DNA of 55,465 nucleotides, taken from Minwuia sp. (lineage in GTDB: Bacteria > Pseudomonadota > Alphaproteobacteria > Minwuiales > Minwuiaceae). This document shows positions 27,170 to 40,418 of this stretch, one piece after another. The notes beneath the pieces were generated by a model. The model was not told the DNA's origin. It did no database searches and worked only from the letters and a program-made list of their open reading frames with translations. Both the position numbers and the translations under genes were made by a program. The DNA is taken from the NCBI GenBank assembly GCA_029213165.1, contig JARGNO010000016.1:12625-68089 (forward strand), written 5' to 3'. The first letter of the stretch is position 1. Every line of letters begins with the position of its first letter.

Positions 27170-28750
27170 ATGGCGATGACACGGCCCAGGAATATCCTGT
27201 TCATCATGGCGGACCAGTTGCGGCATGACTATCTCGGCTGCACGGGCCATCCGACCATTCGCACACCGGTAATCGATGCATTGGCGGCACGCGGCGTGCG
27301 CTTTGCAAATGCCTTCGTCCAGGCGGCGGTCTGCGGCCCGTCGCGCATGTCGTTCTATACCGGGCGCTACGCGGTCAGCCATGGCGCGACCTACAACAAT
27401 TATCCCTTGCGCGCGGACGAGTGGACGCTGGGCGACTACATGGCGCCGCTGGGATTGCGGACCGCGCTGGCCGGCAAGACACACATGCGTGCGGATGAGG
27501 CCGGTATCCGGCGGATGGGTCTGGACCCAGCAACGGGCAGGGGACAGTTCCTGGCTGAATGCGGGTTCGAGCCATTTGACCGTGACGACGGCCTGCATCG
27601 CCTCGCACCGCATGTGCCGGAGGTGGCCTATGAGAAATATCTTCGCGACAAGGGCTATTCTGGCACCAACCTCTGGCACGAGGTCGCGAATTCCGTTCAA
27701 CGCGATGATGGGGAGGATCCATCAGGCTGGCTGATGCGCAATGCGCGCTTCGCCGCCGTGGTGCGGGAAGAAGACAGCGAGACCCCCTACATGACCCGCC
27801 GCGCGATGGATTTCATGACGCAGGCGGGTGACGCGCCCTGGTGCCTGCACCTGTCCTACATCAAGCCGCACTGGCCCTATATTGCGCCTGCGCCCTATCA
27901 TGCACGCTATGGCGCGGGGGACGTGTTGCCCGGCAACCGGGGCCTGGGCGAAGGGGAAACCCATCCGGTGCTGGGTGCTTTTCGCCAACACCCGGAATCG
28001 ATCGCGTTCCGGGAAGATGAATGCCGCGATACGGTGATCCCGGCCTACATGGGCCTGATCGAGCAGATCGACGACCATCTGGGCCACCTGTTCGGTTTCA
28101 TGCAGCGGAAGGGCCTGCTGGAGGACACGCTGATCGTCCTCACCAGCGATCATGGCGATTATCTGGGCGACCATGGGCTGGGGGAGAAGGAACTGTTCTT
28201 CGAGGATGTTCTGCGCATCCCGCTGATCGTGGTGGATCCGTCTTCGGTTGCGGATTCCACGCGTGGCTCGGTCGTCGAAGAGATGGTGGAATCGATTGAT
28301 CTGATCCCGACCTTCGTCGAGAGACTTGGCGGAGAGATTGCCGGGCAACGGCTGGAGGGGCGCTCCCTCGCGCCGTTCCTGCTGGGAGAGCCAGGCACCG
28401 ATGACTGGCGGGATGCCGTCTTTGCCGAATGCGACTATTCCCTGCGTCATGCCCGCAAGACACTCGACCTCGCGCCGATGGATGCGCGCGCCTGCATGAT
28501 CCGCACCGGACGCTGGAAGTATGTCCATCACGTACGGTTCCGGCCTGAACTCTACGACCTACTGAATGACCCGCAGGAACAACAGGATCTTGGTGCGGAT
28601 CCGGGGCACGCATCGACCCGGGAAGTCTTGCAGGCCAGACTGTTCGACTGGCTCTACCAGCGCCGGACACGTGTCGGTGTCACCGACGCGTTCATACGGG
28701 ACACAACCGGAATGGCATTCCAGCGCGGTTACCGCTTCGGCTATTGGTGA
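27170..28750 (+). CDS. sulfatase / phosphonate monoester hydrolase family enzyme
   Basis: A 526-residue alkaline-phosphatase-superfamily hydrolase. Metal ligands appear in FIMADQLRHD near the N-terminus and SDHGDYLGDHG (Asp327, His328). The sulfatase/PMH signature C-x-P-S-R is present as CGPSR (Cys55), the cysteine that is converted to formylglycine. The C-terminal half (YKYVH-like WKYVHHVRF, ELYDLLNDPQE) resembles phosphonate monoester hydrolases and choline sulfatases. It is cytoplasmic, since no signal peptide is seen. It would hydrolyse a sulfate or phosph(on)ate ester; which one cannot be told. ATG 27170 follows GGGAG by five bases. The maturase would have to be encoded elsewhere. Confidence 0.85.
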   Translation: MAMTRPRNILFIMADQLRHDYLGCTGHPTIRTPVIDALAARGVRFANAFVQAAVCGPSRMSFYTGRYAVSHGATYNNYPLRADEWTLGDYMAPLGLRTALAGKTHMRADEAGIRRMGLDPATGRGQFLAECGFEPFDRDDGLHRLAPHVPEVAYEKYLRDKGYSGTNLWHEVANSVQRDDGEDPSGWLMRNARFAAVVREEDSETPYMTRRAMDFMTQAGDAPWCLHLSYIKPHWPYIAPAPYHARYGAGDVLPGNRGLGEGETHPVLGAFRQHPESIAFREDECRDTVIPAYMGLIEQIDDHLGHLFGFMQRKGLLEDTLIVLTSDHGDYLGDHGLGEKELFFEDVLRIPLIVVDPSSVADSTRGSVVEEMVESIDLIPTFVERLGGEIAGQRLEGRSLAPFLLGEPGTDDWRDAVFAECDYSLRHARKTLDLAPMDARACMIRTGRWKYVHHVRFRPELYDLLNDPQEQQDLGADPGHASTREVLQARLFDWLYQRRTRVGVTDAFIRDTTGMAFQRGYRFGYW

Positions 28751-28883
28751 ATGTAGATCACATTTTCTTGAGTCTGGTGGAAAGTGTGACAGCGTTCTCC
28801 TTCTCCGGTGCCGTCGGTGAATAGCTGTGTTTCCTTGATTGTTACCATCTCAGGTCACAGGCATTTGGTAGTGATGATCAGGG

Positions 28884-28911
28884 TTGAAGCCCAGTGAAGG
28901 GAAAGTAATAC
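28884..28911 (+). promoter_or_regulatory. putative promoter of the four-gene exported-protein operon
   Basis: -35 TTGAAG (28884-28889) and -10 TAATAC (28906-28911), 16 bases apart, about 50 bases before the ATG at 28963. The 212-base gap in which it lies is more A/T-rich than the flanking genes and is the only sizeable non-coding stretch before the operon. Confidence 0.35.
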
Positions 28912-28962
28912 TCCTGATAGTCCATCGCGTGGCCTTCTGGTCGGAACAGGGAGTTGGAGCGG

Positions 28963-31900
28963 ATGGAACCCGGAACCTTATTCACTGCCGTGCGGACGGC
29001 ACTTGTCGTAACCGGTCTCGCATTCTTCATGGGAAGCGCGCATTCCGCGCGCGCGCAGAACCTGACCACCCAGATCGAGCAAATGGGTGAACTGGCCGCA
29101 GGCATCCAGGAAACCATCGAAACCAATCGCGGCCTGATCAACAACATGCGCGAGCATGAGGAACTGCTGACGGAGCAGTTGAACCAGGCCATCGATTCCG
29201 GCCTCAACCTGTCCAACGCCATCATCAACAAGCAGCTCGAGACGCTGTTCATCAAGCTGCGGGCGGAGCAGTTCGAGCGGTTGCAGAAGATCAAGGGCTC
29301 GTCGGACCGGATCAAGAACAGCCACAAGGTCTACACCCTGGTGAAGGACATCGTCGACGACACCAACAGCAAGGGGTCGGGGACGGCAGCGCTGGGGGCG
29401 GCGGTGAACATCCTCGCCGCGACGAGCAAGAACCCCTTCATCGCCAATGCCCGCTCGGTGCGGAAGCTGTCGGAACTGGGGGTCATCACCATCTTCGACA
29501 TTCCCCGTCGGCAGGAGGTGCTGGCGGAGTTCAGGGAAGAGGTGCGGCGCGCGGAACTGCGCGACCTGGAACTGACGGAGCGGCTGGTGGAGAACCTGCG
29601 GGAAATCCGGACCGGTCTGACGGTGGAGGGGCCGCGACGGCTTGATCTCTGGGGCGTGCAGTTGCAGGACGCGGCCGTGCGCGACCCGAAGCGTGTTGCC
29701 GCCCTGGGGGCGGAACTGGACAGTTTCGAGCGTGGCTTCGACAAGGCCATCGGGGTCGGCGGGTTGATGCGCCCCATCGTCTCCGTGAAGGCCAGCCTGA
29801 TCCCGGTTGCCCGCCGTGCGCATGAGGCTGTCAGCGCCGCAACGCAGGAACTGAATGCGCTGCGTCAACGCGACAATGACCTGGGACAGCAGGCACAGGC
29901 GGCGCTCGCCATCATCTCGCGGGAAGATCGCGACCTGCGCGACCAGATCAATGCCGCACAGCAGAAGGTCAGCACCCTGTTCGACGAGATCCGCCGCACC
30001 AGCCTGGAGCGTCCCGAGATTTCCAAGGGGCAGGTCAAGTTCCTGCAGGGACCGGCCTACACCAACCGTGGCGAACTGGTGAAGGCCCTAGACGAGCTGC
30101 AGGCGCTGATCGATGCGCTGCCGAACGCGATTGCCCAGCGTCAGACCCAACGCGCGCAGCAGGCCGGCGGGACCGCCGTGCTGGTCAGCATGGCCATCGA
30201 CATGGGCAGGACACGGCGTCTGGCCGCCGATCCGCTGACCCAGCGCATGGCCGGTGTTCCGCATTCGGTGCCCTTCGTTGTGATGGGACGGCACCAGATC
30301 GATTCCCGTCGCGACTGTCGCTTCCAGGTGGAGGTGCGTGACGAACTTGTGGAGCGCATCCGCTCCCAGCGTTTCTTCGATGCCGGTCCCCGCTTCGGGA
30401 TCCAGCCACGGGTCTCCGGCACCCGCTTCACCAGCGTGCGGAACGGCGGCCTGGTCGGCACGATCCAGGGCCGCGACCAGGTCGGCACCGACCAGGTGGT
30501 GGTGACGGCCAGGGCGCTTGTCGACTTCACGCAGCGTCCGACCGTCACGGGCAACTCCGCCGACACCTGCCGGGATTTCGTGCCCCGGATGGACGACATC
30601 ACCGACGAGGTGCGGATCGACGTGGTCAAGATCACCGGGGTCGAGATGGTGCTGGAGTCCCCGATCAGGGCAGAGGGCAACCTGCTGGGTCGAAACAGTG
30701 ACCTGGATGCCTTCATCAGCCTGGACGATGATGTCTCCGCCCTCCGCACCGGCTTCCGCATGGACCTGATCTCTGCGGAACTGTCCGCGCCGGACGGCGT
30801 CAGCCGCATCGGACGCGGCACGCCACTGTCCTTCGGCGGCGTAGGAGACTTCAATGTGGCCCAGGACGGCACGGGCGTCGCCTTCACGGCCCTGCGCCCC
30901 GGCTCCGGCACCTACACGGTCTTCATCGAGGACGGGCAGGGCGGCGAGCACTTCGAGGAGAACCTGGACCTGACGGCAAACGGCATCGGGATGGAAGTGG
31001 AGCCGCTGACCGCCGCCACGGAATTCTTTGACCCCGTCCTTGATCTTGTAAGCCGGAACGAGGTGCGTTTCATCGTCGATGGTCCGGCCCGCATGACCGG
31101 CTATCGGGTCAAGTGGAGCGTCGGCAACGGTGCCCAGGTGACCACGCCGCTGGCCCGGTTCCGCCGCGAAGGTGGTGTCTCGGTTGCTGCCACGTCACTG
31201 ACGGCAGCGGACCTGGCAGAGGCGACGGGCAAGAGGTACAGCGTCACGGCAGAACTGCTTTCCCCTGACGGGGTGATCCTGGCGCGCGGCAGCAAGGAAG
31301 TGATCGCCAGCATCGTCGGCAATGACCTGCGGCTGGTGGCCAGGGACACGAATATCGGCATCGCGGCGAAGGACATCTTCATTCCAGCGCGACGCAATGA
31401 TTTCGGCCAGTTCGGTGTTCAGGTGCTGACCGATGGCCCCCGGATCGAGGCACCGCTGCGTTTCTTCGATGCACGGGTGATCGGCAACGGCTTCCTGCGT
31501 TTCGACGGCGACACGCTGAAGGCCAGCTTCGATGCGCTGGGCGGTGGGGCTGACTCATCCACCCGCGACACGGGAAGGTTCGTGGCGCGGGTCGCACCGC
31601 GGGACTTTTCGCCCGGCAGCAGTCCACGCTTCATCCTGCCGCCACGTCGGTCCTCCAGCGATTCGGCCTTCGTCACGGTCAACAAGCTGAACGTGAAACA
31701 GCGGGATGGCGGCAGTGGCCCTCAGACCGTGCTGGAAGTCTTCGGCCCCGCCGACATGGCGTCCTATGGCGCGCGGTTCGTGTTGCGGGATGGCGGCACG
31801 ATCGACGGTACCTTCGAGAGCGGTGATGCGGCGGCGGAGGCGGTCGCGGATATCGCGCCGGATGCAGTGCGTGCCGCCCAGGTACTCGGACAGGGCGGGC

Positions 31901-32256
31901 AGGTATTGGGCGAGTTCCGGCTTGGCGACGACGGTCCCGTACTCGGGCCGCCGCAGTTCACGTTCCGCATTCCCAACACGGCGGCGCCGGGACAATCGGT
32001 CGTGATCTTCGCCAATGTGCTGAACGTCCCCTTCGACGATGCCGGTGATTTTGACTGCCGCTGGCAGGCCGATCCGGCCTTCGGGACCTTCGACAAGTCC
32101 TTCGTCACCTTGTCTCCGGTCAGCGGCAATGCCGGTCTCTGCGTCAACACGCTGACCATCGCCGATGACCCGCAACTGGTTGGCCGCGAAGCCCCGATAG
32201 AGGTGGAACTGATCCGCATCGTCGGTGATGTCGCCCGGGAAGAGGGGGCGCAGTGA
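28963..32256 (+). CDS. large exported coiled-coil and beta-domain protein, unknown family
   Basis: A 1097-residue protein that I do not recognise. A signal peptide is clear (hydrophobic VVTGLAFFMGSA core, cleavage near ARA-QN). Residues about 35-400 are helical and rich in Glu, Gln, Arg and Leu, probably coiled-coil. From about 430 to the end it is beta-rich with repeated Ig-like strand patterns (for example GTYTVFIEDGQ, YRVKWSVGNG, VVIFANVLNVPF). Few cysteines occur (DCRF, TCRDF, DCRW, LCVN), suggesting one or two disulfides. ATG 28963 lies nine bases after AGGGAG; TTG 28954 is less likely. It is the first gene of an overlapping four-gene operon. A long periplasmic or surface structural protein is my inference. 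Confidence 0.85.
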   Translation: MEPGTLFTAVRTALVVTGLAFFMGSAHSARAQNLTTQIEQMGELAAGIQETIETNRGLINNMREHEELLTEQLNQAIDSGLNLSNAIINKQLETLFIKLRAEQFERLQKIKGSSDRIKNSHKVYTLVKDIVDDTNSKGSGTAALGAAVNILAATSKNPFIANARSVRKLSELGVITIFDIPRRQEVLAEFREEVRRAELRDLELTERLVENLREIRTGLTVEGPRRLDLWGVQLQDAAVRDPKRVAALGAELDSFERGFDKAIGVGGLMRPIVSVKASLIPVARRAHEAVSAATQELNALRQRDNDLGQQAQAALAIISREDRDLRDQINAAQQKVSTLFDEIRRTSLERPEISKGQVKFLQGPAYTNRGELVKALDELQALIDALPNAIAQRQTQRAQQAGGTAVLVSMAIDMGRTRRLAADPLTQRMAGVPHSVPFVVMGRHQIDSRRDCRFQVEVRDELVERIRSQRFFDAGPRFGIQPRVSGTRFTSVRNGGLVGTIQGRDQVGTDQVVVTARALVDFTQRPTVTGNSADTCRDFVPRMDDITDEVRIDVVKITGVEMVLESPIRAEGNLLGRNSDLDAFISLDDDVSALRTGFRMDLISAELSAPDGVSRIGRGTPLSFGGVGDFNVAQDGTGVAFTALRPGSGTYTVFIEDGQGGEHFEENLDLTANGIGMEVEPLTAATEFFDPVLDLVSRNEVRFIVDGPARMTGYRVKWSVGNGAQVTTPLARFRREGGVSVAATSLTAADLAEATGKRYSVTAELLSPDGVILARGSKEVIASIVGNDLRLVARDTNIGIAAKDIFIPARRNDFGQFGVQVLTDGPRIEAPLRFFDARVIGNGFLRFDGDTLKASFDALGGGADSSTRDTGRFVARVAPRDFSPGSSPRFILPPRRSSSDSAFVTVNKLNVKQRDGGSGPQTVLEVFGPADMASYGARFVLRDGGTIDGTFESGDAAAEAVADIAPDAVRAAQVLGQGGQVLGEFRLGDDGPVLGPPQFTFRIPNTAAPGQSVVIFANVLNVPFDDAGDFDCRWQADPAFGTFDKSFVTLSPVSGNAGLCVNTLTIADDPQLVGREAPIEVELIRIVGDVAREEGAQ

Positions 32257-32990
32257 TGATCGCAGGCTCCCTCAAGACAGCGCTTGGCACCGCCGTGATG
32301 CTTGCCCTGATGCTCGGTTCGCTTGCGGGCATGGCACGGGCAGAGGAGATCAGTGTCGGTTCCGGCAAGACCTCGATCCGCATCGTGGCACCCGGAGCCG
32401 GTGGCAATGCGGTCAGTCCGCTACAAACCAACCGGCAGTTCGTCAGCCGGCTGCTGAAGCAGGTCACGATCATCAACGGCAACAACCCTTTCAACCAGAT
32501 CGATCCGGTGCGCAACAACAACGGTCAGGTGTTTGCCGATCTGGAGGATGCGGTGAATGCCAACCAGGGCAACAACAACAATGGCGGTGGCGGTGGCGGC
32601 GGGCTGGCAAACTGCCAGGGCGTGACGGTCCAGATGCAGGCCAGCGGCACGGCACCGCCGGATTTCCGTTTCGCATCACTGGATATCGACCCGAACAACG
32701 GCGACTGCACAGTTGTGGCCGACGGCAGCACGGGTTCGGCGCTGATTGCCCAGATCCCGGCCAATGGCGGCGTGGATTTCACCGCGGCGGAGGTGTTTCC
32801 CGACAGGCTTGTCGGACTGTTCGAGTTCGATCCGCCCGGGGCAATCGATGTCGATGTGCCGCTCGACGTGCCGACCACGGTCACGGTGAAGGCGACGAAC
32901 GGCTTCACTGTCCAGATCACGGTGACGGTCTCAGCGCTTGGTGGTGGTGAGTTCAGCTTTACCGTCAATGCAATCCAGCAGGTGGCGTGA
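32256..32990 (+). CDS. exported protein with Asn/Gly linker, unknown family
   Basis: A 244-residue protein with a signal peptide (AVMLALMLGSLAGMARA-EE). A basic/Asn-rich N-terminal region is followed by a low-complexity NNNN-GGGGGGG linker near residues 108-118, then a beta-rich domain with two cysteines (ANCQG, GDCTV) that could form a disulfide. The last third alternates Val/Thr as in an Ig-like or pilin-like sandwich. Its start overlaps the preceding stop (TGATG). No function can be named. Secretion and operon position suggest it works with its neighbours at the cell surface. Confidence 0.82.
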   Translation: MIAGSLKTALGTAVMLALMLGSLAGMARAEEISVGSGKTSIRIVAPGAGGNAVSPLQTNRQFVSRLLKQVTIINGNNPFNQIDPVRNNNGQVFADLEDAVNANQGNNNNGGGGGGGLANCQGVTVQMQASGTAPPDFRFASLDIDPNNGDCTVVADGSTGSALIAQIPANGGVDFTAAEVFPDRLVGLFEFDPPGAIDVDVPLDVPTTVTVKATNGFTVQITVTVSALGGGEFSFTVNAIQQVA

Positions 32991-33490
32991 TGAGAAAGAC
33001 CGGCATTCTTCTGATTCTGGGCATGTTGTTCTTCGCGACCCTGGCGGAAGCGCGCGAACTTCGCAGGCTCAACCGTATCCAGACGCCTGACCAGTCCGCA
33101 GCCCTGTTGCCCACCGGTGCTGTCCGGGTTGCGCGCACCAATCCGGTGCCGCGGGCGGAGGTGGAACGGTTCCTGGCTGATTTCGCGCGTGACTGGAATT
33201 CCGGCAATCAGGGCAGCTACATCGCTGATGATTTCGTGGACCGGGCGCGGCTGTCCGAGAATCAGGACATCAAGGTCCCGCGTGATGCGGTGCTGAAGAT
33301 CCAGGCGGTTCAGGGTGTCCAGACCGTGCTGCAGGCCAGGCTGACGACGGATGACGGCGAACGCCGCATCGTCAGCACCGTCTCGGCCACCGTCCGGACG
33401 CGGATCGAGTTCACGGATCAGACATTGGGCTTCATCGTGCTGACTGGCACCAACGACTTCGTGATGGAGTTCCAGGAAATCGAGGGATGA
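32990..33490 (+). CDS. small exported alpha+beta protein, unknown family
   Basis: A 166-residue protein with a short signal peptide (ILLILGMLFFATLAEA-RE). The mature part begins basic, then has a helix (AEVERFLADFARDWNSGN) followed by a helix and long strands (RIVSTVSATVRTRIEF, GFIVLTGTNDFVMEF), a pattern compatible with a small alpha+beta cone fold such as NTF2-like, though I see no diagnostic motif. Its ATG overlaps the previous stop (TGATG) and its own stop overlaps the next start (ATGA). Confidence 0.82.
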   Translation: MRKTGILLILGMLFFATLAEARELRRLNRIQTPDQSAALLPTGAVRVARTNPVPRAEVERFLADFARDWNSGNQGSYIADDFVDRARLSENQDIKVPRDAVLKIQAVQGVQTVLQARLTTDDGERRIVSTVSATVRTRIEFTDQTLGFIVLTGTNDFVMEFQEIEG

Positions 33491-35745
33491 CGGTTGCGAG
33501 GGGACGCATGAGGCCGCAATGGCAGGGGCTGGGGCGGCACGCGTTGCTGCTGGCGGGGGCTGGCGGCGTGACAGTCGCCGTGATGGGGGGCGCAGATGCG
33601 CAGGACGCGCTGGAGATCGGCCAGTATGGTGATCCGCTGCCGGAATGGCGCATCGACGGCACCAATACGTTCCGGGCGGAGCAGTCTGGCGTGGCGGGGG
33701 ATGCCGGGGCCAATCCAAATCCGGACAATGCCTTCGATTTCTTCGATGAGGTGCATCTGGATCTGGAGCGGCGATACTCGCCATGGAACTTTCTGCGCGG
33801 CAGCTTCGATGGCGTCGTGAACAACTCCGAGTTCCGCTCCGCCAACCGCGGTATCGTGCCCGAGCGTGCGAACCTGACCTGGACCAAGGGCGACGGATCG
33901 GTTCCGCTGCGGGCCGAGGCGGGGGACTTCTTCGGCTTCTACAGCTTCCGCACCCTTCAGCGCGCACTGAAGGGCGGGCAACTGGAGTTGCAGCCGCAGG
34001 TCGGATGGCTTGACGGTACCCATTCCCTGCAATTCAGTTCCGGTTCCAATCAGCAGACCTATGTCGGCAGCGCTTTCGAGAACTGGTTCGACGACTACTT
34101 CAACGGCGCATCCTGGCTGACCGAGAATGGTGGCAGCACCTATTCGTTCAGCCTGGTGCATGGCTTCCGGCAGGCGGACGGGGCCACCCCTGACCGCAAC
34201 CAGGTGACCGGCAGTCTGGCCGGAGTCCATGACCGGCGTGTCGGCACCCAGATCCTCAGTTTCGAGGGCGAGATGGCCCTGCTGAACGGCGACATTGGCA
34301 ATGGCGGGGCAGGACAGACGGATGCCCTGGACTATTCGATGCTGGCCCAGGTCTCCGGCCGTTCCGAAAGCTCTCCACTGACCTACAGCCTCCGTTTTGA
34401 CCAGACGGGCGCGGAGTTCCAGCCGAATGGTGGTGTCGTCTCCTCCGACCGCCGCACCTTCGACCTGCGGGCCGGATACCGGCTGGACAATGGTCTGGCC
34501 CTGCGCGGACGGCTGCAACAGTTCACCGACGCCTTCACACGCGCGAACAGCACAGATACCCAGGTTGCCGGTGTGACCGTCAGCGGGCCGCTGCGTCTCA
34601 GCGACAGCCGAACGGTGTCCATGACCTGGGACAGCTTTCTGCAGGATGTGGAGAACGACAACAGCACCACAGAAACGCTGACCGCCTCATCCCGTCTTGG
34701 CCTGTCGGCCCCGCTCGCCGCTGGCTGGACCGGGCGGGCCAACCTGTTCTACCAGCATACGGATGATCAGGTCGCCAATACGCTGGCGACCACGCGCGAG
34801 GTCGCGCTGAACGCGACACATGGTCTGGAACTGGGCGGGTTTCGGGGCAGCGTGACGCCGGGGCTGCTCTGGCGTCTGATCAAGGGGGCCGGAAATGACG
34901 AGGCCGATCTGGGTGCCACGCTGGCGGCGAACATGTTTCGCGGCAACCATTCGCTGAACGCCAGCTACCGCTTCCTGTTCCAGGATCAGGAAGGCAACAA
35001 TGTTCTGGAGACAGCGGCACATACCCTGTCCGCCAATTATTCCTACCGGACCGGGCCGCACAGTTTCGGCACGTCGGTCGATCTGTTTCATCGCCAGCCG
35101 GAACCGGGTGGCTTCACCTCTGCCTACCGGGTCGGCGTCTTCTATACGCTGGCGTTCCAGAAGGCGACGGCGGAGGACCGGCAGGCGGCCCAGGCGGCGA
35201 TCTCCCCATCACTGATCCCGATCGCGGAAGGCGAATTTCCGGCGGAGCTGGATCTGATCGACCTGGCACCGGGCATGGCACTGGCGGAAGCGCGTGGCCG
35301 CCTGCAGGCCGCCGGAATAAATGGCGGTGTCGAACAGCCCGGCGCGGTTGTCTATCAGGCGGCGTACCTGCCGCAGGTCGCCAATCCGCAGCGGATCGCC
35401 CTGCTGCATGACGGGGCGCGGCTGGTGAAATCTGCTGCCATCTTCGATCTGGTCGCGACCGGCGATCCGGTTGGCGTGCAGCAGGTGTTCCAGGATATCC
35501 AGCGTATCCTGATCCAGCGCTATGGTACGCCGGAGGTATTTGAACGCGGCGAATTCGGTGCTGATTTCGTGCAGCAGATCAACAGCAACGAACTGATCCG
35601 TATCAGTGAATGGCGCACGCCGGAGGGCACCCTGCGCCTGGGCCTGCCGCGCAGAACGGATGGCACGGTGCGGATCGAACTGCAGTACGCCGGGCGCTTC
35701 CCGCCGCCGGGCCAGACGCGCTGGAGCGTAGAACAGGTCTTCTGA
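33487..35745 (+). CDS. predicted outer-membrane beta-barrel with C-terminal soluble domain
   Basis: A 752-residue protein. The signal peptide probably ends near GADAQ. Residues about 45-590 alternate hydrophobic and polar residues with many aromatic-ended strands and Asn/Asp/Gly turns (such as SLQFSSGSNQQTYVG, TYSLRFDQTGAEF, HSLNASYRFLFQ, YRVGVFYTLAFQ), typical of a large outer-membrane barrel. Residues about 600-752 form a separate alpha/beta domain (LDLIDLAPGMALAEARGRL, VQQVFQDIQRILIQRYGTP, LRLGLPRRTDGTVRIELQYAG) that probably sits in the periplasm. It is unlike the TonB-dependent or Omp85 families as far as I can see. It is the last gene of the operon, coupled by ATGA. Transport or anchoring of the partner proteins is inferred. 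Confidence 0.85.
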   Translation: MTVARGRMRPQWQGLGRHALLLAGAGGVTVAVMGGADAQDALEIGQYGDPLPEWRIDGTNTFRAEQSGVAGDAGANPNPDNAFDFFDEVHLDLERRYSPWNFLRGSFDGVVNNSEFRSANRGIVPERANLTWTKGDGSVPLRAEAGDFFGFYSFRTLQRALKGGQLELQPQVGWLDGTHSLQFSSGSNQQTYVGSAFENWFDDYFNGASWLTENGGSTYSFSLVHGFRQADGATPDRNQVTGSLAGVHDRRVGTQILSFEGEMALLNGDIGNGGAGQTDALDYSMLAQVSGRSESSPLTYSLRFDQTGAEFQPNGGVVSSDRRTFDLRAGYRLDNGLALRGRLQQFTDAFTRANSTDTQVAGVTVSGPLRLSDSRTVSMTWDSFLQDVENDNSTTETLTASSRLGLSAPLAAGWTGRANLFYQHTDDQVANTLATTREVALNATHGLELGGFRGSVTPGLLWRLIKGAGNDEADLGATLAANMFRGNHSLNASYRFLFQDQEGNNVLETAAHTLSANYSYRTGPHSFGTSVDLFHRQPEPGGFTSAYRVGVFYTLAFQKATAEDRQAAQAAISPSLIPIAEGEFPAELDLIDLAPGMALAEARGRLQAAGINGGVEQPGAVVYQAAYLPQVANPQRIALLHDGARLVKSAAIFDLVATGDPVGVQQVFQDIQRILIQRYGTPEVFERGEFGADFVQQINSNELIRISEWRTPEGTLRLGLPRRTDGTVRIELQYAGRFPPPGQTRWSVEQVF

Positions 35746-35791: not shown

Positions 35792-38263
35792 CTAGTTCCG
35801 CCCGCCAAGGCGCAGCCGCACATTCTGTGTCGCGACGCGCGCCGGGGGCGGCACGGCGCAGGTGGTGGGGTCGATTGCCGCGCCATCGACATCCAGACTG
35901 ACTTCGCCATTGTCGATGGTGCCCGCGTATTGCCCGACCCTGAAGCTGATCCGGCCAGCGCCGGTCAGCCGCGCGCTGGCATCAGTTGCCTTTTGATCCC
36001 TGTCGAGGTCGATCAGGGTCAGCATGTCCAGTGATGGCGCGGAATCCTGGCTGATGAACGCAGCATGATACTGATCGACGGGAACAATGCCGTTCTTCGT
36101 CTTTGCGGGGAAGGGAAAGCCCCGTGACCGCTCAAGCTCCAGGTCGGGTCCGACAAGCACCTGAATGGTGGCCACGGCACCGCCGTTGCGCACGACGGCA
36201 AAGCCGCTTCCGGCGCTGCTCAGTGGTTCGGCGGCATGAAAGTTCCATTCCCACTTGCGTGCGCTGTCCGCAACCATCCGGTCAGCGACCAGCACCCGTC
36301 CATCGGGCAAGGAGATCAGCGTCCGCAGGGCGCGGCTGATACCCTGGCCATAGGCGCCTGACGCATCGCCGCGCATGACCACGACGTCGCCACAGCGCCA
36401 GTAGCCCAGCAGGCGGCCCTTGGCACCGGGATCGTCGATCGGCTGCCCCTTGCCGCCATCGAAGGTGATGGCGTTGTGCGCACGGGTCTGGCGGGTCCAG
36501 CCGTCATGATGCCTGGAGCGGTAGTCGTCGTAATAGCCGCTGTCGAGCAGCAGCGGCTTTCCCCGGCCCATGATCGTGAAGGCGTTCTGGTCGGCATGGC
36601 TGTGACTGAAGGAACCGAACTGGCTCGCCTTGAACAGGACCGAATAGCGCTCCGGGTCGTTGATGTCGGTGTGGATCGCGCCCCAGCCGATGTCAGGGAA
36701 GATCGCGGCGTCGGGTATGGCGTCCAGACGCTGGGCGGTGTCCGGGCTGGCGCTGTGATCGCTGAACAGCCGGGGCCAGAGCAGCGCATTGGTCAGCGGC
36801 ACTGCCTTGCCCGTCCGGGCTTCCAGATGTGTCTGCCAGCTTTCCAGCAGCGGGTCGGCAAAGGCGCCGCGACCGCGTTCCGAATAGAGTCTTGCGACCT
36901 CCGACCACAACTCGGGCCGCAGGTTCTCGCCGCCGTCACCGAAACCGGCGTAGGCCACACCCGGTGGCGCGAAATAGGTCAGGAACTCGGCAAAGTTCCG
37001 CACCCAGGCCGTATCGAAATAGGGAAATCCCGTGCTGTTGTGAATCACGTCCCAGCTGTCGACATGGTTCACGAACTCCCAGACGCCGTAGTTCACGCCG
37101 TTGGAATAACCGCCATCGCCCCCGCCCCAGGGCGTCACGATCATGGAGATGAGGGGGTAGCTGTCCCTGAACCAGAGTCTCGCGCGGTCAGAATCACCAC
37201 TCAGCAATGCGGCAATGGCCAGCACATGCGTCATGATCTGAAACCCGTGGGAACTGAGCGCGAACTGCTCCAGATTCCCATGGTCGTTCAGCATGAAGTA
37301 GTCGAAGGCCGGTTGCGTCCTGTCTTCGATATGGCGCCGGACCCGAAGCTGGGTCTGGCGATCCATGTCGCTCTTCAGGATGTCGTAGGCACGGGCCACG
37401 GTCTTGGCCAGCCGGATGTTCAGCAGGTCATTGCCGTCGTGCCCGGTGCGTCCGAGAGGGTTCTCCCCGATCAGGTTGTCGAGATACAGCAGTGCCACCG
37501 CCGTCGCCTGCTGACGAACTTCCTTCTGGCGATGCACGGTCGCAACGGCCAGCGCGTCATTGATCCGGCGCATTGTCTGGCGCAAGGCGGAGCGGCTGCC
37601 GTCGCTGCGTCGGCTGGCAACACTCCCGGCCTCCGGGGCCTCCTTCACGAAGCGGCGGGCAACTGTCTCGAACACCTGCCATTGTGCCGGTGTCAGTCGC
37701 GCGGGGTTGAAGCGCCCGCTCGCCGGGTCTGCAGGCAACGACCGGGGCCGCTTTCGCGTCCTGGCGCGGTCGAAGGCATCCCATACAGGGGGAACGGAAA
37801 GGGCGATACCATCCCGGCGAACCTCGAAGACCCTTGGTGTGGACCAGCCTTCGGGATCGGCGACCCGGCTGCTTTCGTCGGGCAGGGGGCGCCCGAAGGA
37901 ATCCAGTCGCCGGACCTGCCAGGTATATCTGCCCGGCTCCATCGGGCGGTCCGGGCGGAAGGCTGTCGCCTGTGTCACGAACTGCATGTAGCGTTTGCCG
38001 TCGCGTGCGATCAGGACCTCGAAGCTGTAACGGTCCTGTCCCGAGCGCCATCCGAAGGCTGGAGGATTTTCCAGCGCGACCAGGTTGTCTTCCGGCATTT
38101 CCCGCATTTCCTTGCCACCCTGCGGGGTGATCCAGTCCTGCAGGCTGCGCGGCAGGGTTGGCGGATTCTGGTGCGGATCATACCAGCCCTCGGCTGACGC
38201 CTGGGCGGCAAGTCCGACGGTCAGTGCCATGCCAAGAGTCAGATGCTGAAACAGCAGCCGCAT
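35792..38263 (-). CDS. exported heparinase II/III family polysaccharide lyase with DUF4962 region
   Basis: An 823-residue protein with a signal peptide (GMALTVGLAAQASA-EG). The N-terminal 170 residues resemble the DUF4962 beta-domain (PPAFGWRSGQDRYSFEVLIARDG). The middle is an alpha/alpha toroid including NDHGNLEQFALSSHG and WGGGDGGYSNGVNYG. The heparinase II/III beta-sandwich follows, with SFSHSHADQNAFTIMGRGKPLLLDSGYYDDY carrying the conserved His residues and Tyr. Such enzymes cleave uronic-acid polysaccharides by beta-elimination in the periplasm or outside. Its start overlaps the HD-GYP gene stop (TGATG), so the two are co-translated. It converges on the barrel gene with 46 bases between stops. 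The substrate is unknown. Confidence 0.88.
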   Translation of the reverse strand: MRLLFQHLTLGMALTVGLAAQASAEGWYDPHQNPPTLPRSLQDWITPQGGKEMREMPEDNLVALENPPAFGWRSGQDRYSFEVLIARDGKRYMQFVTQATAFRPDRPMEPGRYTWQVRRLDSFGRPLPDESSRVADPEGWSTPRVFEVRRDGIALSVPPVWDAFDRARTRKRPRSLPADPASGRFNPARLTPAQWQVFETVARRFVKEAPEAGSVASRRSDGSRSALRQTMRRINDALAVATVHRQKEVRQQATAVALLYLDNLIGENPLGRTGHDGNDLLNIRLAKTVARAYDILKSDMDRQTQLRVRRHIEDRTQPAFDYFMLNDHGNLEQFALSSHGFQIMTHVLAIAALLSGDSDRARLWFRDSYPLISMIVTPWGGGDGGYSNGVNYGVWEFVNHVDSWDVIHNSTGFPYFDTAWVRNFAEFLTYFAPPGVAYAGFGDGGENLRPELWSEVARLYSERGRGAFADPLLESWQTHLEARTGKAVPLTNALLWPRLFSDHSASPDTAQRLDAIPDAAIFPDIGWGAIHTDINDPERYSVLFKASQFGSFSHSHADQNAFTIMGRGKPLLLDSGYYDDYRSRHHDGWTRQTRAHNAITFDGGKGQPIDDPGAKGRLLGYWRCGDVVVMRGDASGAYGQGISRALRTLISLPDGRVLVADRMVADSARKWEWNFHAAEPLSSAGSGFAVVRNGGAVATIQVLVGPDLELERSRGFPFPAKTKNGIVPVDQYHAAFISQDSAPSLDMLTLIDLDRDQKATDASARLTGAGRISFRVGQYAGTIDNGEVSLDVDGAAIDPTTCAVPPPARVATQNVRLRLGGRN

Positions 38264-40332
38264 CAGTCGTCCCCGCCGGACTCCGCCGGTGCGGCCCCAT
38301 CGCTGGCCTGCACCAGCGCCGCCATCACGGTTCGCCGCCAGGTCTTTTCCGCCTCGGGCCAGAGCTGCTCCAGTGCCTGTTCAGGGGTGCGTGCGGCGCG
38401 GTGGGCGCGTTCGCTGATCAGCGCGACATAGGCATTCGCCAACGAAACGACCTGGGCCGGGACCAGCAGATCATCGCCGCTGATCCCGTTGGGGCGACCG
38501 CTGCCGTCCAGATGCTCCTGCATCTGTCTCAGGGTTTCCACCACAGGCCCATCGAAGGGAATACCCTCCACAAGGTCGGCGGAATGCAGGATGCTGTCGC
38601 GGATCGACGCCAGTTCATCAGGGGTCAGCCCTTCCGTCTTGGTCAGGACCGCGGGGTCGATGCGCAGCTTGCCGAGATTCATCAGGCGTGCGGCGGTCTC
38701 TGCCGCGACAACCTGTGACACCGGAAGACCCATGGCTTCCGCCATGCCCCGTGAAAGCCGGGCGACACGCTGGGAGTGATGGGCGGCGTAGCGGTCGCGG
38801 GCGTCGATCAGGTCAACCAGGACATTCACCAGTGCATCCAGTTGTGCGGCCCGCGCCTCCCGCTCCACGACAATCTCGGTCATGTCCTCGGCGACAATCA
38901 GCACGCCACCATCATCCAGCGGCACGTGAATGCGCTGGGTCACGGACCGGTCCGCACCTGCGCCGCGATCATCGACGTAGCGGACAGACTGATGCCCTTC
39001 ACGGACCTTCTCGTTTGCCGCGTGTAGCGGAGCGCTGCCACCGGGGCCGAGCAGGTTGATCAGCGGCATCCCCTCCGCCTCCCGCGCCGGAATGCCGATG
39101 CGGTCAAAGGCGGCACGGTTTCCGAACAGTACCTTTTCGTCCCGGTCAACGGCTGTAATGCCATTGGGTACGGCGTCGGCGACGTTCCGCAGCAGGCGAC
39201 CAAGCCGGTCGGATTCCTTCAGTGCAACGGAGAGGTTGCTTGCCGCTTCCGCCAGACGGTCGCTGACCGCATGACGCCAGACCGCGACAACCGTGGCGGC
39301 AGCCAGCAACAGCGCAAGAAGCAGCGCGCCGGAGATGAGCCAGATGCGGCGTATGCCGTTCGACAGCGCCAGATCGGCCGGAACCTGCCGGATCAGCGTC
39401 CAGCCGGTGCCGATGATCTGCCTGCTGACCGCCAGAACCTGCTCCCCCGCGTAACCGACAAAGCTGCCGCCGCCCGACGGGGATCCTGACAGGGCCACGG
39501 CGGCCTGTCCGGTCATGGCGGCTGATACCTGGCGCGACAGTGGTGCCGACCCGTCGCCCAGTGGCGTCAGATAGCGGATCTGATTGTTCTGAACGTCTGT
39601 CAGAAAGGTCTCAGCGCCACTGGTCGTGTCGCCGGGCTGTTCGAGGCGCCGAAAGAAGTCGAGGCCGAGCGGGCGCACGGCGACAAGCAGGCCGATCCCG
39701 CCATCCGCGCTGCCGTCAGGAGCGCCAATGCTGCTGAAGAGTGCAATCATCGCCCTGCCGTCGCCCGCCGCGAAGGGGGAGGAGACACTGACCTGGCCGG
39801 GGCGAAGGCTGTCCGGCAGAAGGGAAGTCGGGTCCGGTGCACCGGGGGTTTGCGCCACGATGTTGTTGCTGGCGTCCAGCAGGATCAGACCGCCCTGGGC
39901 CAGGGCATCACGGCCTGATGTCGTCAGTTGGGCACGTGGCTGAAGATAGCCGCCGCGTTCCGCCTCCGCCGTCATCAGTCCTTCGATGTACTGACGACTG
40001 CTGTCGGTTTCCTCCCGCGGCAGTTCCGGGTCGGAAAGGTCAACCAGATAGAACTGCACGGTGCGGTTTGCGGCCAGCCGCACGACCTCACCCCGACGCT
40101 CGTTCAGCCAGTCCTCGACCGCTGCCTTGCGGCTGTCGGCGACAAGGCCGAGGCGGACCTGCCATTCGGAGGTCAGGCGATCGCGTTCATTGTCCGCGAA
40201 CCAGACAATGCCGAGGATGGCAGCCAGCGCGACAAGCAGCAGCGCCACAAGTGCCAGGCCGGCGCGCCGCCGCATCTTGCGACGGTCGCCACCGACGGCA
40301 TCGGATATCGCGGAAGCGCGTGTTTCAGTCAT
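38263..40332 (-). CDS. membrane sensor with PAS and degenerate HD-GYP domain
   Basis: A 689-residue inner-membrane protein. TM1 is at about 24-46, a periplasmic Cache-like sensor spans about 50-320, TM2 is at about 330-352, a PAS domain at about 375-490 (PNGITAVDRDEKVLFGNRAAF), then an HD-GYP-related domain to the end. The HD-GYP core helices are recognisable (RYAAHHSQRVARLSRGMAEAMGL), but the metal HD pair reads MN (RLMNLGKL), HHE reads MQE, and GYP reads GRP. It is therefore probably unable to hydrolyse c-di-GMP and may bind it or signal by contact. The start at 40332 is chosen for the family-like N-terminus; its ribosome-binding site is weak. Confidence 0.85.
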   Translation of the reverse strand: MTETRASAISDAVGGDRRKMRRRAGLALVALLLVALAAILGIVWFADNERDRLTSEWQVRLGLVADSRKAAVEDWLNERRGEVVRLAANRTVQFYLVDLSDPELPREETDSSRQYIEGLMTAEAERGGYLQPRAQLTTSGRDALAQGGLILLDASNNIVAQTPGAPDPTSLLPDSLRPGQVSVSSPFAAGDGRAMIALFSSIGAPDGSADGGIGLLVAVRPLGLDFFRRLEQPGDTTSGAETFLTDVQNNQIRYLTPLGDGSAPLSRQVSAAMTGQAAVALSGSPSGGGSFVGYAGEQVLAVSRQIIGTGWTLIRQVPADLALSNGIRRIWLISGALLLALLLAAATVVAVWRHAVSDRLAEAASNLSVALKESDRLGRLLRNVADAVPNGITAVDRDEKVLFGNRAAFDRIGIPAREAEGMPLINLLGPGGSAPLHAANEKVREGHQSVRYVDDRGAGADRSVTQRIHVPLDDGGVLIVAEDMTEIVVEREARAAQLDALVNVLVDLIDARDRYAAHHSQRVARLSRGMAEAMGLPVSQVVAAETAARLMNLGKLRIDPAVLTKTEGLTPDELASIRDSILHSADLVEGIPFDGPVVETLRQMQEHLDGSGRPNGISGDDLLVPAQVVSLANAYVALISERAHRAARTPEQALEQLWPEAEKTWRRTVMAALVQASDGAAPAESGGDD

Positions 40333-40418
40333 CACAGGTCCAGCCTGAAAGGTGCAGTCGAGTGTAGCGTTAACCAATCATGCTGAACAAAGCGTTTACC
40401 CGTGGTCGGTGTTGGCGG

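Follow-up and report, generated by a model that had tools for sequence, protein, structure and literature searches.

We suggest that four overlapping genes of a Minwuia sp. encode an unnamed outer-membrane platform that assembles surface proteins, by exporting or anchoring them, and that the product of the third gene, g3, pairs with a protein bearing a short signature, here called the NPF motif; we hold this reading at a probability of about 0.5. The genes form a real, conserved module for which we found no description in the literature searched, a result that does not by itself establish absence from print. The features on which the argument draws are given below, numbered along the whole 55,465-nucleotide stretch of DNA that was analysed (the window).

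27170-28750, 5' of the operon: sulfatase gene (PF00884, Pfam).
28963..32256, + strand: g1, ORF of 1097 aa from ATG; exported, with an N-terminal helical/coiled-coil part and a C-terminal beta (Ig-like) part.
29062..30165, + strand: helical segment of g1, residues 34-401, from DSSP of the predicted model; pLDDT under 50 over residues 72-191.
30178..32217, + strand: beta segment of g1, residues 406-1085, probably tandem Ig-like, from the predicted model; block pLDDT mostly 75-93 over residues 550-780.
32256..32990, + strand: g2, ORF of 244 aa from ATG (alternative GTG at 32253); exported, bears the NPF motif.
32463..32510, + strand: NPF motif of g2, VTIINGNNPFNQIDPV; HMM E-value 7e-9, or 0.0011 when g2 itself is left out of the model.
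32990..33490, + strand: g3, ORF of 166 aa from ATG (alternative GTG at 32987); exported, with a conserved mature N-terminus and a conserved domain.
33487..35745, + strand: g4, ORF of 752 aa; predicted outer-membrane beta-barrel with a C-terminal soluble domain.
33646..35163, + strand: barrel of g4, residues 54-559, 26 strands in the predicted structure; fold match to MtrB (6r2q_B).
35254..35742, + strand: C-terminal domain of g4, residues 590-752, predicted alpha/beta from about residue 595; consensus EW.T..G.LRLGIPRRLDGQVRIE.
35792-38263, 3' of the operon and in the opposite direction: heparinase II/III-like gene (Pfam).

The four-gene operon with overlapping junctions that a sequence-only reading had proposed is borne out by the four ORFs, which meet in TGATG at 32254-32258 (g1/g2), in TGATG at 32988-32992 (g2/g3) and in ATGA at 33487-33490 (g3/g4). 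The signal peptides it had assigned to all four products also fit, each N-terminus having, as judged by eye, a basic start, a hydrophobic core and an A-x-A-like site. The four proteins lack a lipobox in their first 40 residues and contain no CXXCH haem site. A 212-base gap separates the sulfatase gene from g1 (28750 to 28963); by protein starts, a sulfatase also stands beside the operon in three other loci (L052-L054) and the heparinase-like downstream gene is also present in L048 and L049. Adjoining the heparinase-like gene is a gene for a Cache-PAS-HD domain protein (HD_5; 38263-40377, - strand), possibly a c-di-GMP phosphodiesterase.

The operon exceeds a chance arrangement, as g1 is kept in three other genomes of the genus, a second paralogous set of all four genes exists and the set recurs outside the genus. 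A search of 116 genomes, the window's own included, matched g1 in 5 (one of them weakly), g2 in 4, g3 in 5 and g4 in 7. The full operon is found in four of the seven genus genomes (G000, G001, G002 and G004) and is absent from G003, G005 and G006; the same four genomes carry the paralogous set. In the genus, copies of the operon are flanked by a sulfatase gene on one side and a heparinase II/III-like gene on the other. Identity of g1 to its counterparts in the three other genomes is 64, 82 and 88%. The paralogous set of G000 runs from A (about 200 aa, exported) through B (about 1100 aa) and C (about 790 aa, its C-terminus matching g1) to g2-, g3- and g4-like genes; this genome also has a further g3-g4 pair, its third, where a contig ends (L042), and a partial second copy of g1 occurs in G001. 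A weak match to g1 (G074, E 1e-3) and weak matches to the barrel alone (G008 and G023) were also seen, that of G023 proving by profile not to be a relative.

The neighbourhood survey suggested along with the sequence-only reading was run and the genes do co-occur in other genomes. A scan of the genome collection with a g4 profile returned at least 33 further loci, a lower bound because a locus had to contain one of two conserved peptides to be returned. By title, these loci belong to Minwuia, Kordiimonadales IMCC3096 (a closed chromosome), Gallionella, Sterolibacterium, Mariprofundus, Magnetococcales, Spongiibacteraceae, Neptunomonas, Burkholderiales, Nitrospinae, Nitrospirae, Desulfobacterales and others; 31 of the 33 are metagenome bins by title, and single placements may be wrong. 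The set is nonetheless no binning artefact, because the closed IMCC3096 chromosome carries two barrel copies. Among 398 genomes drawn from the phylum, g4 occurs in 7 and g3 in 6, all 6 of them within those 7; the resulting p-value of 1.3e-12 supposes independent genomes and is too small, since four of the seven carriers (G250, G266, G297 and G308) are one family. These searches overlap the models, contigs of G250, G266, G290 and G308 having also been returned by the 33-locus scan, and G266 has only a short, weak g3 match (E 1e-7). Present in about 2% of the 398 sampled genomes, the module is rare, and it is linked.

By profile, 30 of the 33 loci have g3 no more than 7 kb from g4; it lies immediately upstream in 27 of them, and in L067, L069 and L081 it follows g4 at a distance of 2 to 7 kb. 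No g3 was recovered at three loci: L071, on a contig of 5.6 kb that leaves 309 bases ahead of g4; L079, whose contig begins within g4; and L082, where the barrel is fragmented. A bin of the Desulfobacterales (L065) has the same four-gene order as the window, the six-gene arrangement of the genus paralogue is paralleled, in gene order and size alone, by L076 and by the second L066 set, and g4 comes first at L067, L069, L081 and L099, so that gene order varies while g3 and g4 stay together. FecR-domain proteins are added at L081, L084 and L099, and a VWA protein at L070. The constant core consists of the motif protein, g3 and g4; the long protein is variable, and L094 has none. Two g3-containing sets lie side by side in a Smithellaceae bin (L066:3-12447), as g3-g4 followed by A-B-C-g2-g3, the latter reaching almost to the end of the available sequence, and a gene for a 7TMR-DISM sensor kinase directly follows g3 at L067:12844-15306, which may point to regulation of the module. 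One partial barrel relative (L045, E 2e-29) had no g3 match below E 1, and an apparent repeat-plus-barrel relative (L046) was rejected at E 0.069 with the g4 profile.

The mature N-terminus of g3 has the consensus EFR....IATP and is accompanied by a conserved domain. The g3 pattern of a helix and then long strands suggests an NTF2-like fold as a candidate; a PDB sequence search with the g3 profile found nothing. Distance matrices of g3 and the barrel correlate at r = 0.84 over 24 loci (0 of 2000 permutations), as would be expected of genes moving together. The g3 alignment covers 25 of the 33 loci, leaving out L052, L053, L063, L068, L084 and the three loci without g3, and the correlation uses 24 of its 26 rows, L081 (no barrel row) and L066 (g3 row from the second copy) having been dropped. 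At L111, g3 adjoins an NPF protein (L111:11498-14046) with no g4 match in the 20 kb of sequence covered, the sole detected barrel of that genome lying on another contig; a pairing of g3 with the NPF protein would predict such an arrangement.

Two of the products had been described as small secreted proteins. Both g2 and g3 are small and exported, but g2 is not just that, as it carries a motif that elsewhere sits inside a long partner. This motif, approximately V.LI.V...GNNPFN..DP, is common to g2 and to otherwise unlike long partners in an all-against-all comparison. A profile built from 16 copies and run on 4266 six-frame segments recovered 23 ORFs at E below 1e-4, all of them operon partners, from 22 of the 33 loci and the window; the next-best segments among the 4266 scored E 5.7, for a segment that is also an operon partner (L069), and 9.4. 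With copies left out by group, 12 of the 16 were still recovered at E below 0.01, those of L057 (E 0.4), L076 (E 1.2) and L072 (E 3.7) were weak and that of L077 was not recovered. The motif is present in all three loci found later, in two genomes: L094 (E 4e-4), L111 (E 1e-6) and L099 (E 4e-8, a member of the family of L081, which is part of the model). Among the 11 loci with no profile match, L056, L068, L071, L079 and L082 are truncated or fragmentary, L055, L067, L069, L075 and L080 have degenerate forms discernible by eye, and L084 has no form by profile or by eye. Because the strand preceding the motif in fused loci is similar, as judged by eye, to the final strand of g1, the pair of g1 and g2 has the appearance of a single long protein that has been split, an interpretation that would rest on this short similarity.

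The description of g1 as a long coiled-coil and beta protein agrees with the predicted helical (34-401) and beta (406-1085) segments, in an AlphaFold2 model of low confidence (mean pLDDT 63.9, pTM 0.41). Fold matches of this model (Foldseek/VIA) include many Ig-like arrays, at best Z 9.1, which may reflect merely a common arrangement; intimin and invasin domains (Z 7.4 and 6.8) and alpha-2-macroglobulin and S-layer proteins are also among the matches listed. A PDB sequence search with g1 gave no relative and two chance-level matches (best E 0.73). A first pass of the g1 profile found L065 (E 6.5e-15), L066 (E 1.9e-7) and the genus paralogues, and iteration added L072 and L076, which BLAST ties to g1 (L072, E 8.5e-7) and to each other (L072 and L076, E 1e-42); in all of these the g1 relative lies directly upstream of g2. 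Elsewhere the long partner proteins differ widely: that of L077 has a Big_1 array by Pfam, with the L078 partner about half identical to it, those of L067 and L069 have HYR arrays and those of L057 and L062 are Pro/Thr-rich or short-repeat proteins. The motif protein of L094 has just 237 aa, and a long stalk is thus not obligatory. Two side observations concern gene integrity: the paralogous gene upstream of g2 on the closed IMCC3096 chromosome (L044:7926-10299) consists of two ORFs in different frames, through a break or a sequencing error, and at L055:6650-8248 a transposase-like ORF, identified by eye, lies just 5' of the motif protein, whose N-terminus may be lost.

The last gene had been read as a large beta-barrel with a soluble C-terminal domain, and the predicted structure of g4 (mean pLDDT 81.8, pTM 0.78) upholds this, with 26 strands over residues 54-559, a longest gap between strands of about 15 residues and a terminal alpha/beta domain. 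The densest conserved stretch of g4, in an alignment of 27 of the 33 loci that leaves out the near-duplicates L052, L053 and L063 and the partial L079, L081 and L082, is the EW.T..G.LRLGIPRRLDGQVRIE of that C-terminal domain. Among the best 50 VIA matches listed, MtrB (6r2q_B) is at the top with Z 14.9, rmsd 4.7 and 444 aligned residues; the porin CymA ties with it by Z-score (14.8), but its alignment spans 258 residues at rmsd 11. FimD (9fw9_D; Z 12.0, rmsd 4.7, 382 aligned) and a modelled LptD entry (Z 11.2, rmsd 4.6, 367 aligned) are also close fits to the model, FhaC gives a partial alignment (Z 12.3, rmsd 8.2, 222 aligned), and the other matches listed among these 50 down to Z 12 have rmsd 7.7-11.5. 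Foldseek also ranks MtrB 6r2q_B first by E-value, at low TM-scores of 0.40/0.45; AlgE is also among the g4 fold matches listed, a viral structure library gave weak, generic porin-like matches, and a PDB sequence search with the g4 profile found nothing. The barrel of a Mariprofundus bin (L071:310-3243) has an N-terminal SPOR domain, a domain whose role implies a periplasmic location. Because SPOR places this N-terminus in the periplasm and the predicted strand number is even, the C-terminal domain would lie in the periplasm as well.

We note that none of g1 to g4 reaches a Pfam or NCBIfam cut-off, so that the profile searches envisaged with the sequence-only reading, once run, matched no protein to a named system. 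Pfam matches on the window proteins, the paralogue partners and the partners elsewhere are at chance level apart from Big_1, HYR, FecR, SPOR, VWA and the sensor kinase; the NCBIfam search covered the window proteins and 28 barrels. The sequence-only reading knew no named system with this set, which stands as far as sequence matches go but has to be qualified in respect of outward layout, in which the gfcABCD/yjbEFGH operons of E. coli are similar.

Our reading of the module as an export or anchoring platform is based on the conservation of g3 and of the soluble domain of g4, on a conserved motif carried by unlike clients and on the adhesion-type modules of some long partners, namely Big_1 (L077), HYR (L067 and L069) and the predicted Ig-like array of g1. 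We posit that all four proteins would be exported via Sec and that g4 would form a wide outer-membrane barrel with its C-terminal domain toward the periplasm. There, g3 would act as a periplasmic adaptor or chaperone binding the NPF protein, with g2, either by itself or as part of a fusion with a long stalk, as the client that docks via its NPF motif, and the complex of g3 and NPF protein would dock on the C-terminal domain of g4. The long coiled-coil/Ig-like stalk, g1, would be carried or displayed with g2, and would be passed through, or fixed on, the barrel and so displayed outside. The periplasmic or surface locations, the contact between g3 and the NPF protein, docking and export are steps that we infer. 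That the barrel anchors or exports its partners, as the sequence-only reading held, is the best-supported interpretation of a gene set that does recur, and it keeps the standing of a proposal. Several observations weigh against it: MtrB, the best-covering fold match, is no protein exporter and has low Foldseek TM-scores, the motif is weak, degenerate or lacking at some loci, L094 does without a long stalk, the g1 model is of low confidence, and the sulfatase and heparinase-like neighbours in the genus would also fit a polysaccharide role.

Known surface systems offer partial parallels for such a platform. In chaperone-usher pili (FimD/PapC) a wide barrel is followed by a periplasmic C-terminal domain and served by a small periplasmic partner, with Ig-like clients; the predicted barrel and C-terminal domain of g4, the small g3 and the probably Ig-like partners would resemble this, and FimD is among the g4 fold matches listed. 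The g4 model, however, has neither an N-terminal domain nor an insertion long enough for a plug; g4 and the 28 barrels have no Pfam match to the usher family, hhalign of the barrel profile against FimD as a single sequence gives a probability of 0.7%, and no Pfam match to chaperone or pilin families was found. Intimin/invasin and two-partner secretion likewise combine an outer-membrane barrel, of intimin type or POTRA type, with a long Ig-like surface protein, as do g4 and its long partners, including the Big_1 array of L077; here the barrel is in contrast a separate, much larger protein, and neither g4 nor the 28 barrels have a Pfam match to either barrel type. A more specific form of the platform reading, which we advance only tentatively and consider rather doubtful, is a dedicated pathway for outer-membrane protein export, of a type not yet numbered, in which the 26-strand barrel and its periplasmic docking domain would work with g3 as adaptor and the NPF motif would serve as the export signal for interchangeable stalks, with some pairs of g3 and client encoded away from the barrel they use.

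The module could instead be a static envelope scaffold or tether, with the barrel as a mere outer-membrane anchor, the long protein spanning the periplasm as a link between barrel and cell wall and nothing exported. The SPOR domain of the L071 barrel, the long predicted helical part of g1, the FecR-domain or VWA neighbours at L081, L084, L099 and L070 and the listing of alpha-2-macroglobulin and S-layer proteins as fold matches of g1 would all suit a tether. We nevertheless regard it as unlikely, given that Big_1 and HYR arrays, which are usually extracellular, point outside the cell when found in the partners, and that a barrel of 26 strands far exceeds the size needed for an anchor.

Export or anchoring of a polysaccharide or glycolipid, with g4 as a polymer pore like GfcD/YjbH, AlgE or LptD and g1 to g3 as accessory envelope proteins, is in our estimate improbable, even though gfcABCD/yjbEFGH is the closest known layout, AlgE and LptD are among the g4 fold matches listed and the genus copies lie between sulfatase and heparinase II/III-like genes. 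Like the window operon, gfcABCD/yjbEFGH is short, encodes exported proteins and has a very large outer-membrane barrel as its last product, and two of the three junctions of yjbEFGH overlap in E. coli K-12. One report proposes 26 strands for GfcD and describes its binding by a GfcB-GfcC dimer (PMC8592465), and another models GfcD as a pair of barrels, with 12 and 13 strands (PMC11494523); g4, which may be a single barrel, aligns in its predicted model along its whole length with MtrB. The systems differ further in that YjbF is annotated as a lipoprotein, of which there is none among g1 to g4, and that no Ig-like or coiled-coil partner is annotated there. No sequence relation was detected either: g4 has no Pfam match to the GfcD/YjbH family at E<=1, nor do the 28 barrels at E<=0.1, and g1 to g3 have none to GfcB/YjbF or GfcC/YjbG. 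Against single sequences, hhalign gave the 28-row barrel profile a probability of 0.2% with K-12 YjbH, which is compatible with a very remote relation, and 0.3% with LptD, and the g3 profile 0.7% with YjbG and 0.3% with YjbF; a positive control, which is an easier test, recovered the barrel of the family member L094 at 100% and its g3 at 99.9%. The 28 barrels also lack a Pfam match to LptD, no recurring glycan gene was noticed beside the core in other loci (among neighbours judged by ORF starts only, unannotated), and the partners are Ig-like, repeat or coiled-coil proteins.

An electron conduit of the MtrB/PioB porin-cytochrome kind is already disfavoured and very improbable, since the best-covering fold match of g4, to the 26-strand barrel MtrB, and a weak g4 match to the NCBIfam family GSU2204 (E 7e-4 and 18.5 bits, where the cut-off is 350; also matched in 2 of the 28 barrels) are set against the lack of CXXCH in g1 to g4, the extra C-terminal domain of g4, the lack of a sequence match, and Pfam results of the 28 barrels with no match to the MtrB/PioB family.

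For the platform reading, the novelty lies in the protein families and the gene set, and the mechanism is plausible and testable. If true, it would mean that Gram-negative bacteria have a further route for the display of long adhesin-like proteins, in lineages that are mostly represented by metagenome bins. The NPF signature motif offers a way to find the clients of such a route, the closed IMCC3096 chromosome makes the set testable in a real strain, and the g3 and g4 families, which have no Pfam match near cut-off, gain a setting for functional testing.
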